Source: Halanaerobium saccharolyticum
Lineage (GTDB): Bacteria > Bacillota > Halanaerobiia > Halanaerobiales > Halanaerobiaceae
Direction: 5' to 3'
Assembly (NCBI RefSeq): GCF_003259895.1
Contig: NZ_QLME01000023.1
Location: 1-51,062 of the forward strand
Length of the DNA stretch: 51,062 nucleotides
The notes under the pieces were generated by a model. That model was not told the origin of the DNA, ran no database searches, and saw only the letters and a program-made list of their open reading frames with translations. Below, in pieces: positions 1,303 through 12,150 of this stretch (within the stretch, counting starts at the first letter, position 1; every line of letters starts with the position of its first letter). Made by a program: the position numbers and the translations under genes.

Positions 1303-1372
1303 TAAAAAAAACCAGAAAAGAGGGTATAGAAAACCCTACTTTTCTGGTTTATGCCTGCCGAACAGTAACACG
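1303..1372 (-). promoter_or_regulatory. RAT antiterminator site overlapping an intrinsic terminator
   Basis: On the minus strand the leader reads TGTTACTGTTCGGCAGGC (about 1344-1372), a close match to the ribonucleic antiterminator (RAT) of BglG/LicT systems. Its 3' end overlaps a strong hairpin with arms AACCAGAAAAG (1310-1320) and CTTTTCTGGTT (1339-1349), followed by a run of U (A at 1304-1310). This is the classical mutually exclusive antiterminator/terminator arrangement, placed before the antiterminator gene. Confidence 0.85.
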
Positions 1373-1424
1373 CCATCACTATATTAAATTTATTTAGGCT
1401 TTGATTTTGAATTTATTGATTATA

Positions 1425-1453
1425 ATTTTATATTATTTTCATAATATTGTCAA
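1425..1453 (-). promoter_or_regulatory. sigma-A promoter for the antiterminator gene
   Basis: Minus-strand TTGACA (1448-1453) and TAAAAT (1425-1430) are separated by 17 bp. The transcript would start near 1418 and run through the RAT/terminator. The remaining intergenic DNA up to 1688 is AT-rich; I see no further gene in it. Confidence 0.65.
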
Positions 1454-1688
1454 GGATTTAACTGCAGATAATTTTACAGCTAGAATTATAATATTTAATT
1501 TTCTAGGCAATAATTTCTCCCTTAAATAATAAATTTTATTCAACATTATCCAGCCAAAAAATCAATTTAAGTTTAAATTAAAATTTAATTTATTTTTCTC
1601 TGCAGTTGTGCTATGATAAGAACAAATAGAGTTATATCAAGCTTAAAATAGATCTTTTAAATCATAAACAATACCGAGGAGGAAAAAT

Positions 1689-2492
1689 ATGTTGTTTGAT
1701 TATCATCTGCACTCCCAATTTTCTGCTGACTCAGAGATGACAATGGATCAGCTCTGTCAGGCAGCTGTTAAACTGGGTCTGGACGAAATAGCAATTACCG
1801 ACCACCATGACATTGATTATCAGGATGATACAATTGAATTTTTAATAGACAAAAAAGAATATTTAAAAGAAATAGAAAAGTTTCAGCAAAAATACAAAAA
1901 ACAGATTAAAATTAAAAAAGGAATAGAAATAGGTCTACAGCCACATATATATAAAGAATGCAGGAAGTATATCTCAGATGATTTTGATTTTGTAATCGGC
2001 TCTTTTCATACTGCTGAACATGCTGATTTATATAATGGAGATTTTTTTGCAGGCTACAGCCAGTGGGAAGCTTATATTCAGTATCTTAAGTCTGTGCTTG
2101 AGGTAGTCCAGAATTATGATGACTACAGTGTAATCGGCCATCTTGACATTATCCGCCGCTATGGAGATTTCGAAACTCAACCGGAACTGCTGAAAAATAA
2201 GGAGGCTTTCGATTTGATAAAACAAATATTGAAAGTAATAATAAACAAAAATCGGGGTTTAGAGGTTAATACTTCTGGTTATCGAATTGATGGTAAAAAT
2301 CCACTCCCCAGCTTTGAAATTTTAAAGTTATATCATCAGCTCGGTGGTGAAATTCTAACTATTGGTTCTGACAGCCACAACATAGAGGACATAACTAAAA
2401 AATTTGATTATACAATTTCCAGGCTTAAAGAAATTGGGTTTAATCAGCTCACAACTTTTGCCCATCTGGAACCAAAATTTCATAAAATATAA
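1689..2492 (+). CDS. PHP-family phosphatase, probable histidinol-phosphatase
   Basis: A 267-aa PHP-domain phosphoesterase of the HisJ/HisK type, which in Firmicutes hydrolyses L-histidinol phosphate in histidine synthesis. The metal ligands are visible: DYHLHSQFS at the N-terminus, AITDHHD around residue 38, the glutamate in KGIEIG, the histidine in GSFHTAE, IGHLD, and SDSHN near the C-terminus. The start follows GAGGAGG at the proper distance. No other his genes are nearby and the gene stands alone between two minus-strand operons. PHP proteins also act on other phosphate esters, so the family is certain but the substrate is inferred. Confidence 0.8.
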   Translation: MLFDYHLHSQFSADSEMTMDQLCQAAVKLGLDEIAITDHHDIDYQDDTIEFLIDKKEYLKEIEKFQQKYKKQIKIKKGIEIGLQPHIYKECRKYISDDFDFVIGSFHTAEHADLYNGDFFAGYSQWEAYIQYLKSVLEVVQNYDDYSVIGHLDIIRRYGDFETQPELLKNKEAFDLIKQILKVIINKNRGLEVNTSGYRIDGKNPLPSFEILKLYHQLGGEILTIGSDSHNIEDITKKFDYTISRLKEIGFNQLTTFAHLEPKFHKI

Positions 2493-2534
2493 CAGCAATT
2501 AAAAAAATATTTAAGAACAAAAAATGCAGGAGAC

Positions 2535-3329
2535 CTAAAGTTCTCCTGCGATTACTTTTAATAATTCTGCTGTATCTTCTGGATTTTTAAGATAATATTC
2601 TGCCTCTGTATTTAGGTCATCCTCGTTCTGAACATAAATAGTAATCCCATCTTTTATAACTTCAAAAGCATCCTCATCTGTCCGGTCATCACCAATATAA
2701 ATCCTTAAAATATTATCTATCTCTAAATTTTTTCTGATCTGATCACTAATATAATTGATTGCCTTTCCTTTGTCCCAGCCTACCGGCCTGATTTCAATCA
2801 ATTTTCTACCGGAAAGGACCTGATAAGCCGTATTTTCAAATAAGGCCTGAAGCTTTTTTTCTTCTGCTGACTGCTCATTTTCGGATTCAAAGTGCAGGGC
2901 CAGCCCAAAGCCTTTATCTTCCACACGGACACCATCTAACTTTGAATATTTTTCTCTGCTCTTTTGATAATTTTTCCTGCTTAAAACATCAAGCTCTTGC
3001 TTCTGATGAGGATAAATTACGCCCTTTGTAAAAGACATCTCTATTTCTAAACCATGACTGCCCGCATAATGACAGCGGTTTAAATCAATCATCTTTTTCA
3101 ATTCACTTAATTTTCTCCCGGAAACCAGACTCAAATGATACTTCTGGCTTTTTTCTAATTTTTTTAAACTGCTTTCTGCCTCCGGTAAAGCAAAAGCAGA
3201 AAGAGGATCAACTTTAAAAGGAGCCAGGGTTCCATCATAATCGAGAAAAAGGAAGATATTTTCTACCCTGGCTAAGCTATTTTTTATTTTATTCAAATTC
3301 TGCTCGTCCAGAACATAGCTATTATTCAT
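2535..3329 (-). CDS. otsB: trehalose-6-phosphate phosphatase
   Basis: A HAD-superfamily phosphatase that converts trehalose 6-phosphate to trehalose, the second step of the OtsAB route. The nucleophile motif LFLDYDGTLAPF, the SGR loop and the acidic GDDRTDEDAF motif are all present, and 264 aa fits the family. The start is the ATG at 3329, which overlaps the otsA stop by eight bases (ATGaaTAA), implying translational coupling. The open frame extends further upstream into otsA, but nothing there resembles OtsB. It forms a two-gene operon with otsA; trehalose is a common compatible solute in salt-stressed bacteria. Confidence 0.92.
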   Translation of the reverse strand: MNNSYVLDEQNLNKIKNSLARVENIFLFLDYDGTLAPFKVDPLSAFALPEAESSLKKLEKSQKYHLSLVSGRKLSELKKMIDLNRCHYAGSHGLEIEMSFTKGVIYPHQKQELDVLSRKNYQKSREKYSKLDGVRVEDKGFGLALHFESENEQSAEEKKLQALFENTAYQVLSGRKLIEIRPVGWDKGKAINYISDQIRKNLEIDNILRIYIGDDRTDEDAFEVIKDGITIYVQNEDDLNTEAEYYLKNPEDTAELLKVIAGEL

Positions 3330-8769: not shown

Positions 8770-8946
8770 CGAATACCCCCTATTTATTAAACAAATTATA
8801 AAATTTTCTTCTTCTTATTATTATATTGGGCAAAAATAGTTAAAATCCTTTATTTTTTTAAGAATTCCGAATTAAATAATTATTCTGTTTTATTTGAACT
8901 AATTTTCCTTAATTTACTAATTGATATAGCCGCAGGCTGCTATTTA

Positions 8947-8955
8947 TGCTATAAT
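8947..8955 (+). promoter_or_regulatory. extended -10 promoter (TGCTATAAT)
   Basis: TGn precedes a perfect TATAAT (8950-8955), 26 bp before the start of the kinase-like gene. There is no good -35 at standard spacing; a small dyad AGCC-GCA-GGCT sits in its place. Confidence 0.5.
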
Positions 8956-8981
8956 ATGATTAAAGAAAGAAGGTGGAATTT

Positions 8982-9950
8982 ATGCAGATAATAACAATTT
9001 CACAACAGACAGCAAGTGGTGGAGATGAAATTGCAGAAGAACTCTCCCATCGTCTTGGATTAAAGTTAATTGACCGCAGATTTGTGCTGAAAAACTGGCT
9101 GCCAGAAATTGCTGACGAGCACCAGCTGCATATGCTGGAGCAGAGCTCTAAATTCTATACTAAAATTGCCAATCCCGAAGCTGAAAAAGAAAAACAGATT
9201 ACTTTTGCTGAATATATTTCTCAAAAACTAAAAAAAGAAGCAGAAAATAACAGGCTTCTCATTTTAGGGCTGGGAGCTCAAATCATATTTAACAACCATC
9301 CCTATGCCCTTCATTTTAAGATTGTTGCTTCCGAAAAATATCGAATTAAAGAACTGGAAAAAGAATTTGGTCTACATAAAGAGGAGGCTGCCCGGGAACT
9401 TGAATTAGCTGACCGCAAACACCGCCGCTATCTCTGGCGGATCCACGAGCAGGACTGGGAAAAACCAACTCTCTACCATTTAACATTAAATAGAGATGGG
9501 CTTAACTTAGAAGAAAGCATTTCGGTTTTAATGAACTTAATTGATCTTAAAAAAGAAAATCCCGGATCCTTAAATAATAATATCGAAGTTAAAACCGATA
9601 TAAAAGAAAAAAAAAGTAACGGCCAGCGCAGCTTTGGCCATGAAAGTGAAAAAGAATTTGCCAAAGTCCTGGATATGCATCATATTAAATGGGAATATGA
9701 GCCAAGTGAATTCCCGCTGGAATGGGATCCAGATGGAAATGTGATCATGGCCTTTAGACCGGATTTTTATTTATCTGAACATGATACCTATGTTGAACTA
9801 ACAACAATGAAAAGAAAATACACAACGGAAAAGAACAAAAAAGTTCGCCTCCTGCAGGAACTCTACCCCCATATTAATATAAAAATTGTTTATAAAAAGG
9901 ATTTTGAACAGCTTGCCGAAAAATTTGAGCTAAAGGGGAGTGAAGAATAA
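8982..9950 (+). CDS. cytidylate-kinase-like domain fused to a PD-(D/E)XK nuclease-like domain
   Basis: Two domains in 322 aa. Residues 1-190 resemble the cytidylate-kinase-like family (IITIS start, ASGGDEIAEEL in place of the usual GSGGREI P-loop, and the C-terminal KYRIKELEKEFG and LADRKHRRYLWRI). Several expected residues are changed: SRQ is SQQ, GSGGR is ASGGD and the GRGA motif is GLGA. Catalysis is therefore doubtful. Residues 215-322 look like a PD-(D/E)XK fold: a helix with E221/E224, then FRPDFYL (D261) and YVELTTMK (E272, T274, K277). The ATG at 8982 follows AAGGTGG; the GTG nine bases upstream is part of that site. The stop codon is immediately followed by the start of the HPRT-like gene. 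Function unknown. Confidence 0.65.
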   Translation: MQIITISQQTASGGDEIAEELSHRLGLKLIDRRFVLKNWLPEIADEHQLHMLEQSSKFYTKIANPEAEKEKQITFAEYISQKLKKEAENNRLLILGLGAQIIFNNHPYALHFKIVASEKYRIKELEKEFGLHKEEAARELELADRKHRRYLWRIHEQDWEKPTLYHLTLNRDGLNLEESISVLMNLIDLKKENPGSLNNNIEVKTDIKEKKSNGQRSFGHESEKEFAKVLDMHHIKWEYEPSEFPLEWDPDGNVIMAFRPDFYLSEHDTYVELTTMKRKYTTEKNKKVRLLQELYPHINIKIVYKKDFEQLAEKFELKGSEE

Positions 9951-10487
9951 ATGGAAACAGATAATTTAGGAAAAGTTATTATTTCTGAAAAAGAAATTGC
10001 TGCCAGAATCGATGAGCTTGCAGCTCATCTTAATCAAGATTTTAAAGGCAGAGAAGTGATTTTGGTCAGCATTTTAAAAAGCTCACTCTATTTTATGACT
10101 GATCTAAGCCGCAAACTTAAATTCCCACTTAAACTGGATTTTTTAGAATTAAATCACTATGCAGATCAAGATAACTCAGGTGTTATAAGGGTAACCAGGG
10201 ATCTCGAATTCAGCATTGCCGGCAAAGATGTTTTAATTATTGAAAATATTATCAGAACCGGTTTAACCCACAGCTATCTGCTAAAAAACCTGGGCGCCAG
10301 AAATCCAAAAAGCATCAGTATCTGCACCCTGCTTCATATCTCAGATAATAAGCTGCTGGATTTACCTGTTCAATATACTGGCTTCGAAATTGAAAACAAT
10401 TTTGTGGTAGGATATGGACTGGACTATCAGGAAAAATATAGAAACCTACCTCATATTGCTTTAATCAAAGAAAATCCCCAGCCTTAA
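9951..10487 (+). CDS. hypoxanthine phosphoribosyltransferase-like protein with degenerate active site
   Basis: The 178-aa protein is plainly of HPRT ancestry (RDLEFSIAGKDVLII, VGYGLDYQEKYRNLPHI). Yet all four active-site elements differ from working bacterial HPRTs. The PPi-loop LKG is LKS (42-44). The flexible-loop SSYG is NHYA (68-71). The PRPP motif EDIIDTG is ENIIRTG (98-104), replacing the catalytic-base Asp with Arg. The purine-recognising Lys in LLDKP is Ile130 (LLHIS). Normal HPRT makes IMP and GMP; this one probably does not, and may bind a nucleotide or act as a partner of the gene directly upstream, which ends one base earlier. The upstream reading frame carries a weak Shine-Dalgarno site (GGGGAG) for this start. 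Confidence 0.8.
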   Translation: METDNLGKVIISEKEIAARIDELAAHLNQDFKGREVILVSILKSSLYFMTDLSRKLKFPLKLDFLELNHYADQDNSGVIRVTRDLEFSIAGKDVLIIENIIRTGLTHSYLLKNLGARNPKSISICTLLHISDNKLLDLPVQYTGFEIENNFVVGYGLDYQEKYRNLPHIALIKENPQP

Positions 10488-10502
10488 AGCTGAGGGTTTT
10501 TT
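10476..10502 (+). terminator. intrinsic terminator overlapping the HPRT-like stop codon
   Basis: Stem CCC-CAGC / GCTG-GGG with one bulged A, followed by six U. It closes the two-gene unit that starts at 8982. Confidence 0.8.
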
Positions 10503-10564: not shown

Positions 10565-11302
10565 TCACTTATAAATTTCTGTTTCAATTTTTTTGAGTGC
10601 CTCAGTTGCTTTTTCCTGAATAAAAAGATCTGTAATATCATCAGTAAAATTTGATTTTTCAATATTAATCTCCAGGATTTTAGCTCCCTTACTTCTTGCT
10701 ACAACTGGAATTAAGGAGGCAGGCTGCACCTCACCAGTTGTCCCAATTATGATAAACAAATCAGCTTTTTCTGCTTCTTCAAAAGATAGTTTTTCTGCTC
10801 TTTCAGGTATTGCCTCACCAAAAAATACAAAATCAGGTTTTAAAATTTCACCACATTCTCTGCATTTTGGAGGCAGTTCTGCCAGCAGCTCATCAGTCAC
10901 ATGATATTTAGCTCCACATTCAGTGCAGATTAAATAACGGGAATTACCGTGAAATTCAAATACATTTTGACTGCCTGCCTGCTGATGCAGATTGTCTATA
11001 TTCTGAGTAATCACAGCCTGGACATGGCCATCTTTTTCCAGGCGGGCAATAACGCGATGAGCCTCATTTGGTTCTGCTTTGCCAAAATAATCATAAAAAA
11101 TTTCCTTAATAGTATGCCAGCTTGCTTCCGGGTTCTTATAAAAGTTTTTAAGTTCTAAAATTACTGGATCATATTCATTCCAGAGCCCTTCTTCGCCTCG
11201 AAAAGGTGGTACACCACTTTCTACTGAAACACCGGCACCGGTAAATACTGTTGTATGATTTGAGTCCTTTATTAGTTCAGCAGCTTGCTGGTATTTATTC
11301 AT
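10565..11302 (-). CDS. cobB: NAD-dependent protein deacylase (sirtuin)
   Basis: A Sir2-family deacylase of 245 aa, removing acyl groups from lysines with NAD+. Motifs: TGAGVSVESGVPPFRG for NAD binding, TQNIDNLH, catalytic His in EFHGN, and a zinc site CTEC...CREC. The ATG at 11302 follows GAGGTGAGG; a GTG nine bases earlier lies within that site. It is apparently a single gene, 60 bp upstream of which begins the stop side of an unknown protein gene on the same strand. Confidence 0.92.
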   Translation of the reverse strand: MNKYQQAAELIKDSNHTTVFTGAGVSVESGVPPFRGEEGLWNEYDPVILELKNFYKNPEASWHTIKEIFYDYFGKAEPNEAHRVIARLEKDGHVQAVITQNIDNLHQQAGSQNVFEFHGNSRYLICTECGAKYHVTDELLAELPPKCRECGEILKPDFVFFGEAIPERAEKLSFEEAEKADLFIIIGTTGEVQPASLIPVVARSKGAKILEINIEKSNFTDDITDLFIQEKATEALKKIETEIYK

Positions 11303-11371
11303 ATTCCTCACCTCAAAACTATTATATCATATTTTCTGATTGAATAGTCAAAAAAGCAGCCTCAGTCTTTA

Positions 11372-12046
11372 TTAATCTAAAAAATCATCTTTATCATCTT
11401 CAAAAGTCCGCATAAACTCTACAGCCTTTTTACTGATATCAAAAAACTCTCCCCGCTGCCTTTCTCTAAAATAGCTGCTCTGTTTGTAGCTGACAAAATT
11501 ATTCTGATCCAGCTGATAAATCTCCATCAGGGTCCAGCCCCAGTCAAATTTTTCACCTATCTCCTGTCTGAATATCTTTTTAGAGTTTAAAATAGAAGCC
11601 ACTTCATAATTTGTGTGATTAAAGGGCTCAACTCTTTCATCAGCATTATATGTTATCAATTTTTCGATTTCAGCTTGCTTTTGATCCATTAACTTTTCAA
11701 ATTTTATATGATCAGCATCTTTTTCCACTGCTTCTATTTCTTTTTTGCCAAGATAATGGAAGTTAAAATCATATAAAATTTTCATTTTAAGATAGATATA
11801 TTCCTTAACATCAGAAAAACGGCCCTTGATTTTTTTAACGGGGTAGGAAATAACTTTTCTTTTTTCTAAATTACCCGCTCTATTATTTTTGACCAGTAAA
11901 AGAATATCCCCCACTTCTGTAAATCTATCCAGCTCAGCTTTTTTTAGAAATGTTTTTTCTTTTTCCGACCCTAATAAACTTTCTATTTCAATTTCTTCTG
12001 CAATATTATTTACTTTATAGAGATTAACTTTTTTAAATAAGCCCAT
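11372..12046 (-). CDS. conserved-looking protein of unknown function
   Basis: I do not recognise this 224-aa protein. It is soluble, highly charged and has no signal peptide or membrane segment. A lysine/glutamate-rich central part (KKEIEAVEKDADHIKFEKLMDQKQAEIEKL, quoted here as two helical runs around residues 110-140) looks helical; the C-terminal third is rich in aromatics (FDWGWTLMEIYQLDQ). The first 60 residues could form a small beta-domain. The ATG at 12046 has GAGGTG at the right distance, while the GTG nine bases upstream is inside that site. It probably forms a unit with cobB, 69 bp downstream. Confidence 0.6.
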   Translation of the reverse strand: MGLFKKVNLYKVNNIAEEIEIESLLGSEKEKTFLKKAELDRFTEVGDILLLVKNNRAGNLEKRKVISYPVKKIKGRFSDVKEYIYLKMKILYDFNFHYLGKKEIEAVEKDADHIKFEKLMDQKQAEIEKLITYNADERVEPFNHTNYEVASILNSKKIFRQEIGEKFDWGWTLMEIYQLDQNNFVSYKQSSYFRERQRGEFFDISKKAVEFMRTFEDDKDDFLD

Positions 12047-12150
12047 TTGTTTCACCTCGAATTAATTATATCAATTCTAATAGTCCAGTCAATTTAGTAA
12101 CAGATTTTTGATATTTCAATACTTTTCCTTTTTTTCTAAATTATAAACAT

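Follow-up and report, generated by a model that had tools for sequence, protein, structure and literature searches.

Halanaerobium saccharolyticum encodes, side by side, a fusion of a kinase-like domain with a PD-(D/E)XK-like domain and a protein derived from HPRT, and the two genes form a strictly conserved pair. We think it quite possible, if somewhat short of an even chance, that this pair is one functional unit in which an HPRT-fold sensor controls a PD-(D/E)XK effector. Each of the folds is known; we found neither their combination nor its strict conservation in the literature. The initial annotation of this locus had likewise known of no described system with such a make-up, and our search, which covered subscription papers in part and from which absence is not proof, returned no description of the architecture.

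The window analyzed here is a stretch of 51,062 nucleotides (contig NZ_QLME01000023.1, forward strand). Gene 1 occupies positions 8982–9950 on the plus strand, starts with ATG and codes for the 322-residue Cytidylate_kin2/PD-(D/E)XK-like fusion protein (P0001). The first base of gene 2 (9951–10487, plus strand) directly follows the stop codon of gene 1. Its product is a 178-residue paralogue (P0002) that scores 176.2 bits against the HPRT equivalog model TIGR01203 (cut-off 150) and falls into a clade apart from ordinary HPRTs. Hence the adjoining HPRT that the initial annotation described is confirmed, and so is the terminator it assigned to both genes: overlapping the 3' end of gene 2 is a hairpin with six T behind it (10474–10502, plus strand; about −10 kcal/mol by RNA folding), which resembles an intrinsic terminator. 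On the other side of the pair, an extended −10 promoter box, TGCTATAAT (8947–8955, plus strand), lies 26 bases 5' of the gene 1 start, with a ribosome-binding site, AAGGTGG, at 8970–8976 (plus strand). The TATAAT of this box is unchanged across 8 related loci in an alignment of the upstream region; a generic promoter scan gave a result at chance level, and an Rfam scan of the window returned no match. Since the conserved −10 box and the terminator-like hairpin flank the pair while the neighbors vary among genera, the two genes probably make up a two-gene transcription unit. A small palindrome, TAGCCGCAGGCTG, is found directly 5' of the −10 box (8927–8939) and is common to the nearest relative only.

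The initial annotation had asked whether a phosphoribosyltransferase gene always adjoins the fusion gene. In every examined locus with enough flanking sequence it does: in each of the 17 Halanaerobiales carriers, in 8 further loci from Clostridia and in 27 of 27 Bacillota loci, an HPRT-like gene of the same strand lies directly 3', usually with a 4-base overlap or nearly so. One lineage has gone further. In Thermomicrobium roseum, which we considered in addition to the surveyed Bacillota genome collections, a single protein without a kinase joins the nuclease-like domain directly to the HPRT. Evolutionary distances among the nuclease-like domains correlate with those among the paired HPRTs (Mantel r 0.80, p 0.001), as shared ancestry alone would also produce. 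Among genomes sampled from the wider phylum, 38 of 398 contain the domain (one by a weak match), as do 40 of 299 relatives, corresponding to 21 of 209 genera. Genomes duplicated between the phylum and Halanaerobiales scans were removed before trees and counts were made, where they were recognized. Within genus and order the pair is patchily present.

Such a patchy distribution would suit a system against phages, or one of abortive infection, whose nuclease is set free when nucleotides are depleted. The joining of a nuclease to a nucleotide sensor is common in defense, and the pair would fit this logic. We nevertheless regard a defense function, which had been suggested by the initial annotation, as very improbable. 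The pair is old and co-diverging, its neighbors are housekeeping genes, and no repair gene, defense gene or purine operon recurs near it. PADLOC matched no system: P0001 gave one weak generic PD-(D/E)XK match (2.2e-4) and P0002 none. Of 103 pattern matches in viral contigs, none encoded a relative, and phage records contained only a distant Pelagibacter phage endodeoxyribonuclease I (27–38% identity). PADLOC matches among the neighbors are scattered, and those to IetA/TRIP13 may be due to FtsH, as the ordinary hpt locus formed part of the set. No third gene recurs with the pair: the examined neighbors fall into 108 families, none of them found in more than 4 of 82 proteins. In most sampled Halanaerobium, a SIR2-family deacylase gene (10565–11311, minus strand, in the window) is convergent with the pair, an arrangement not seen in more distant carriers. 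Adjoining it is an open reading frame for 227 residues (11372–12055, minus strand) with no Pfam match at E 0.001.

The first domain of P0001 is readily assigned. Residues 3–171 (8988–9494, plus strand) match the Cytidylate_kin2 family PF13189 with an E-value of 5e-31 and 108.7 bits, well above the family cut-off of 28, and the predicted structure of this domain matches the solved PF13189 proteins 3hdt and 3fdi with Z around 22 over some 160 residues (Z 22.4 over 164 residues for 3hdt). A nucleotide-kinase-like N-terminus had been proposed before and is upheld by these data. The same proposal called the ASGG P-loop altered, which it is not: the motif is usual in the family, and 3hdt also carries a GSGG P-loop. 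P0001 thus resembles 3hdt and 3fdi as a clear family member with a GSGG-type P-loop, and differs in that the match to these proteins spans the kinase domain alone, whereas P0001 adds a PD-(D/E)XK domain. Truncation or loss of the kinase was found in three pair-bearing loci; two of these keep only the C-terminal half and lack the half with the P-loop, and the third is the T. roseum fusion. Because the pair persists in these forms, we conclude that the Cytidylate_kin2 domain is accessory and that the core consists of the nuclease-like domain and the HPRT.

Assignment of the C-terminal domain of P0001 (residues 218–316; 9633–9929, plus strand) relies on several weaker lines of evidence that agree. 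The region contains the pattern FRPDFYL...YVELTTMK and is separated from the kinase by a linker (residues ~193–217) modeled with low confidence. It scores 20.4–21 bits against Phage_endo_I (PF05367), which is under the cut-off of 29.1, and matches the endonuclease family phrog_945 at 6e-8 and solved T7 endonuclease I at E 3.5e-4 in a PDB profile search. A fold search with the whole protein returned kinases and was uninformative about the C-terminus, so this domain was folded separately. The resulting model (mean pLDDT 81) has PD-(D/E)XK topology with elements in the order H E E E E E H E H, and PD-(D/E)XK proteins predominate among its best structural matches. The top match is Bax1 (Z 8.5, 89 residues, rmsd 3.2), followed by the homing endonuclease I-Bth0305I (Z 7.7), VRR-Nuc (7.5) and Vsr (6.9), with Hjc and TnsA lower. 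These matches are modest, with a Foldseek E-value of about 0.09 and a best Z of 8.5 that barely exceeds the background of no clear match. Since sequence and predicted fold concur, we classify the domain as PD-(D/E)XK-like. The initial annotation had recognized a likeness to PD-(D/E)XK nucleases from the sequence pattern; the link to T7 endonuclease I supports this view, and the structure predicted for the isolated domain does not depart from that fold. We take DUF790 to be the Bax1 family.

These nearest relatives suggest another function. The pair could be a structure-specific nuclease of DNA repair or recombination that cuts junctions or flaps like T7 endonuclease I, Bax1 or VRR-Nuc, with the HPRT contributing structurally instead of acting as a sensor. 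T7 endonuclease I is indeed the best sequence relative, with a common PDF motif and aligned acidic residues, and Bax1, I-Bth0305I, VRR-Nuc and Vsr are among the nearest structures. We consider this function quite unlikely, as it leaves the need for an HPRT fold unexplained, and no repair gene recurs in the neighborhoods described above. The known proteins also differ from the domain in several respects. Unlike T7 endonuclease I, the domain remains under the Pfam cut-off, contains no ExK lysine, carries a three-residue insertion after motif III, and belongs to a cellular protein with an additional kinase-like domain and a partner HPRT. The partner of Bax1, in archaea, is the XPB helicase, and no HPRT is involved. 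Replacement of a resolvase by the pair can be dismissed, because RuvC is present in all sampled members of the order with or without the pair.

Related domains with an intact ExK motif occur elsewhere in unrelated settings. In another Halanaerobiales genome, the C-terminal Endo-I-like domain encoded at 1372–2529 (minus strand) of locus L020 retains VEIKG; this gene adjoins a small HNH-like open reading frame (2591–2902, minus strand), looks phage-like and has an architecture unrelated to the pair. Actinobacterial plasmid proteins (L074, 2665–3666) carry a related PDFYLPDHQTWLEVKG domain, also with ExK intact, after a low-complexity N-terminus.

The putative active site of the paired domain is strictly conserved. 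Across 49 diverse members the motif I acidic residue E223 (9648–9650), D261 of the motif II PDF (9762–9764), E272 and T274 of motif III (E272-L-T274, 9795–9803) and the lysines K284 and K287 (9831–9842; all plus strand) are invariant. The acidic metal site, made up of the motif I Glu, the motif II Asp and the motif III Glu, is therefore kept in 49 of 49 members, while motif III reads E-[LI]-T throughout and the lysine of ExK is absent from all. In the model of P0001, K284 and K287 sit in the helix that follows motif III. Knizewski et al. have described a family with a threonine in motif III and suggest that its lysine has shifted into the next helix (PMC1913061). DUF790, a term that also occurs in PMC7293015, is listed as another case of such motif III lysine migration (PMC1913061), a feature that the top structural match may thus have in common with the paired domain. 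Given the invariant acidic residues and two candidate catalytic lysines placed as in these published families, the domain does not look dead, and an active metal nuclease is plausible. The threonine that replaces the ExK lysine in all 49 members could also be read in the opposite sense, namely that the domain is catalytically dead and that the pair regulates transcription of purine genes by binding DNA or RNA, in a manner comparable to PurR or TilS-HprT. This seems improbable to us, since a mere binding domain would not need an invariant acidic triad and no purine operon recurs nearby.

PurR itself provides a further argument on this point. It is absent from 17 of 17 carriers among the 61 relatives sampled, which would agree with a regulator of purine genes. 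The anticorrelation between PurR and the pair is no longer seen when the order is taken by itself (p 0.49); for the phylum as a whole it is weak, with PurR in 8 of 37 genomes that have the pair and in 141 of 361 that do not (p 0.049). Replacement of PurR by the pair, as the first sample might have indicated (0 of 17 versus 20 of 44), was consequently rejected as phylogenetic confounding.

How has the HPRT changed in this partnership? The PRPP loop of P0002 reads ENIIRTGLT (10242–10268, plus strand), and R102 stands at the position of the catalytic aspartate; ordinary HPRTs have EDIIDTG where P0002 has ENIIRTG. I130 (10338–10340, plus strand) aligns with the purine-contact lysine, K165 in the human enzyme. 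This lysine is lost in 48 of 49 paired HPRTs. The equivalent of the catalytic Asp137 is lost in 31 of the 49 (17 Arg, 10 Gly, 3 Asn, 1 Lys) and retained by 18, and the 31 proteins without it, including P0002, also show an altered flexible loop. The equivalents of the phosphate-loop glycine G139, D193 and R199 are kept in every paired HPRT. By comparison, all 44 ordinary HPRTs keep Lys165, Asp137, Asp193 and Arg199 equivalents, and their flexible-loop Ser and Tyr are invariant as well. Judged by these alignments, what unites the paired HPRTs as a family is that base recognition has gone while the phosphoribosyl-phosphate site is still there. In a tree that includes 29 ordinary HPRTs, largely from carrier genomes, they group as a single clade (support 100/100), and this tree requires three changes at the catalytic aspartate position. 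One clade of carriers (L138, L139, L141, L143–L146) has Gly instead of Arg at this position, a second fixed replacement.

Carrier genomes that were checked also encode an ordinary HPRT (17 of 17 in one set). The exception is G030, a 62%-complete genome in which the paired copy alone exceeds the HPRT cut-off; for T. roseum, the search covered the plasmid record without the chromosome. In the source genome of the window, the ordinary hpt lies between tilS and ftsH, separate from the pair. The initial annotation regarded the partner as a dead HPRT. This is apt insofar as the lineage of the window has lost the catalytic aspartate, but 18 of 49 members keep it, and nearly all of the 49 are without the purine-contact lysine, so that the paired HPRT is better called altered than simply decayed.

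Retention of the aspartate in these members, which may still be enzymes acting on another base, speaks against a sensor. More generally, the paired HPRT could be an active phosphoribosyltransferase of altered base specificity that works with the kinase- and nuclease-like domains in one salvage or repair pathway, for example for modified or damaged bases or nucleotides freed from nucleic acid. A nucleoside-monophosphate-kinase-like domain would fit a salvage route, and with the phosphate-loop glycine and the D193 and R199 equivalents present in all members, base recognition is the only function changed throughout. We judge this pathway unlikely: the 31 members that lack the aspartate and have an altered flexible loop are strictly paired all the same, half of the kinase, with its P-loop, is lost in two loci, and T. 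roseum does without a kinase. The conserved phosphate site, the loss of the base site and of the catalytic base, and the presence of an ordinary enzyme elsewhere in the genome point instead to a sensor.

Two known systems provide precedents for such a sensor. The phosphoribosyltransferase domain of Bacillus PurR has no enzyme activity and senses PRPP and ppGpp in the former active site (PMC8789054). The pair may resemble PurR in coupling nucleotide sensing by this fold to a part that binds nucleic acid. In PurR that part is a winged-helix DNA-binding domain within the same chain, whereas the pair comprises a separate HPRT-derived protein and a PD-(D/E)XK protein; of the NCBIfam models, P0002 hit TIGR01203, while the PurR model TIGR01743 matched neither P0001 nor P0002. 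In Bacillus subtilis, HPRT forms a complex with TilS, a protein that acts on nucleic acid and is encoded by the adjacent gene (PMC8152036), which also lends some support to the regulator with a dead nuclease domain discussed above. The pair has the same arrangement of genes, and we infer a similar complex between its products. The HPRT of TilS-HprT, unlike P0002, is an ordinary enzyme.

From the precedents of PurR and TilS-HprT, we propose for P0002 the role of a regulator of P0001 that responds to bound PRPP or a related nucleotide. P0002 would be an HPRT fold turned from enzyme to sensor, having kept the 5'-phosphate loop and the residues of the pyrophosphate/metal site but neither purine recognition nor, in this lineage, the catalytic base. 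Its ligand would most likely be PRPP, and perhaps also (p)ppGpp or another nucleotide. The ligand state would then be passed, presumably in a physical complex, to the PD-(D/E)XK domain of P0001, which may bind and probably cut DNA or RNA through E223, D261 and E272, with K284 or K287 standing in for the absent ExK lysine. The Cytidylate_kin2 domain may serve as an accessory nucleotide-binding or scaffold module. A nucleotide-sensing effector, as envisaged by the initial annotation, thus remains the best reading; the two nucleotide-binding folds next to a nuclease fold are borne out, while for the sensing itself, as for the direction of control, we rely on the comparisons above. A bolder and rather unlikely extension is that the pair represents an undescribed but widespread class of PRPP- or nucleotide-gated nucleases, in which a base-blind HPRT-fold sensor switches a PD-(D/E)XK domain with a migrated lysine according to purine or stringent state, and the kinase-like domain provides a second nucleotide input.

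The pair also bears on the annotation of purine metabolism. Because the paired HPRT-like genes exceed the curated cut-off for HPRT, and because the fusion is named "hpt" in the T. roseum record, many bacteria are likely to be listed in databases as having a second enzyme of purine salvage, although this protein lacks the conserved residue for base recognition. This two-gene unit occurs in many anaerobic bacteria, is small and can be tested in vitro. Our analysis suggests that it works as a switch, so far undescribed, through which the supply of nucleotides is sensed and translated into action on nucleic acid. Should P0002 indeed be a sensor, a fold of purine metabolism would have been enlisted, separately from the case of PurR, for the control of a protein with a nuclease fold, and nucleotide supply or (p)ppGpp would be linked directly to action on DNA or RNA.
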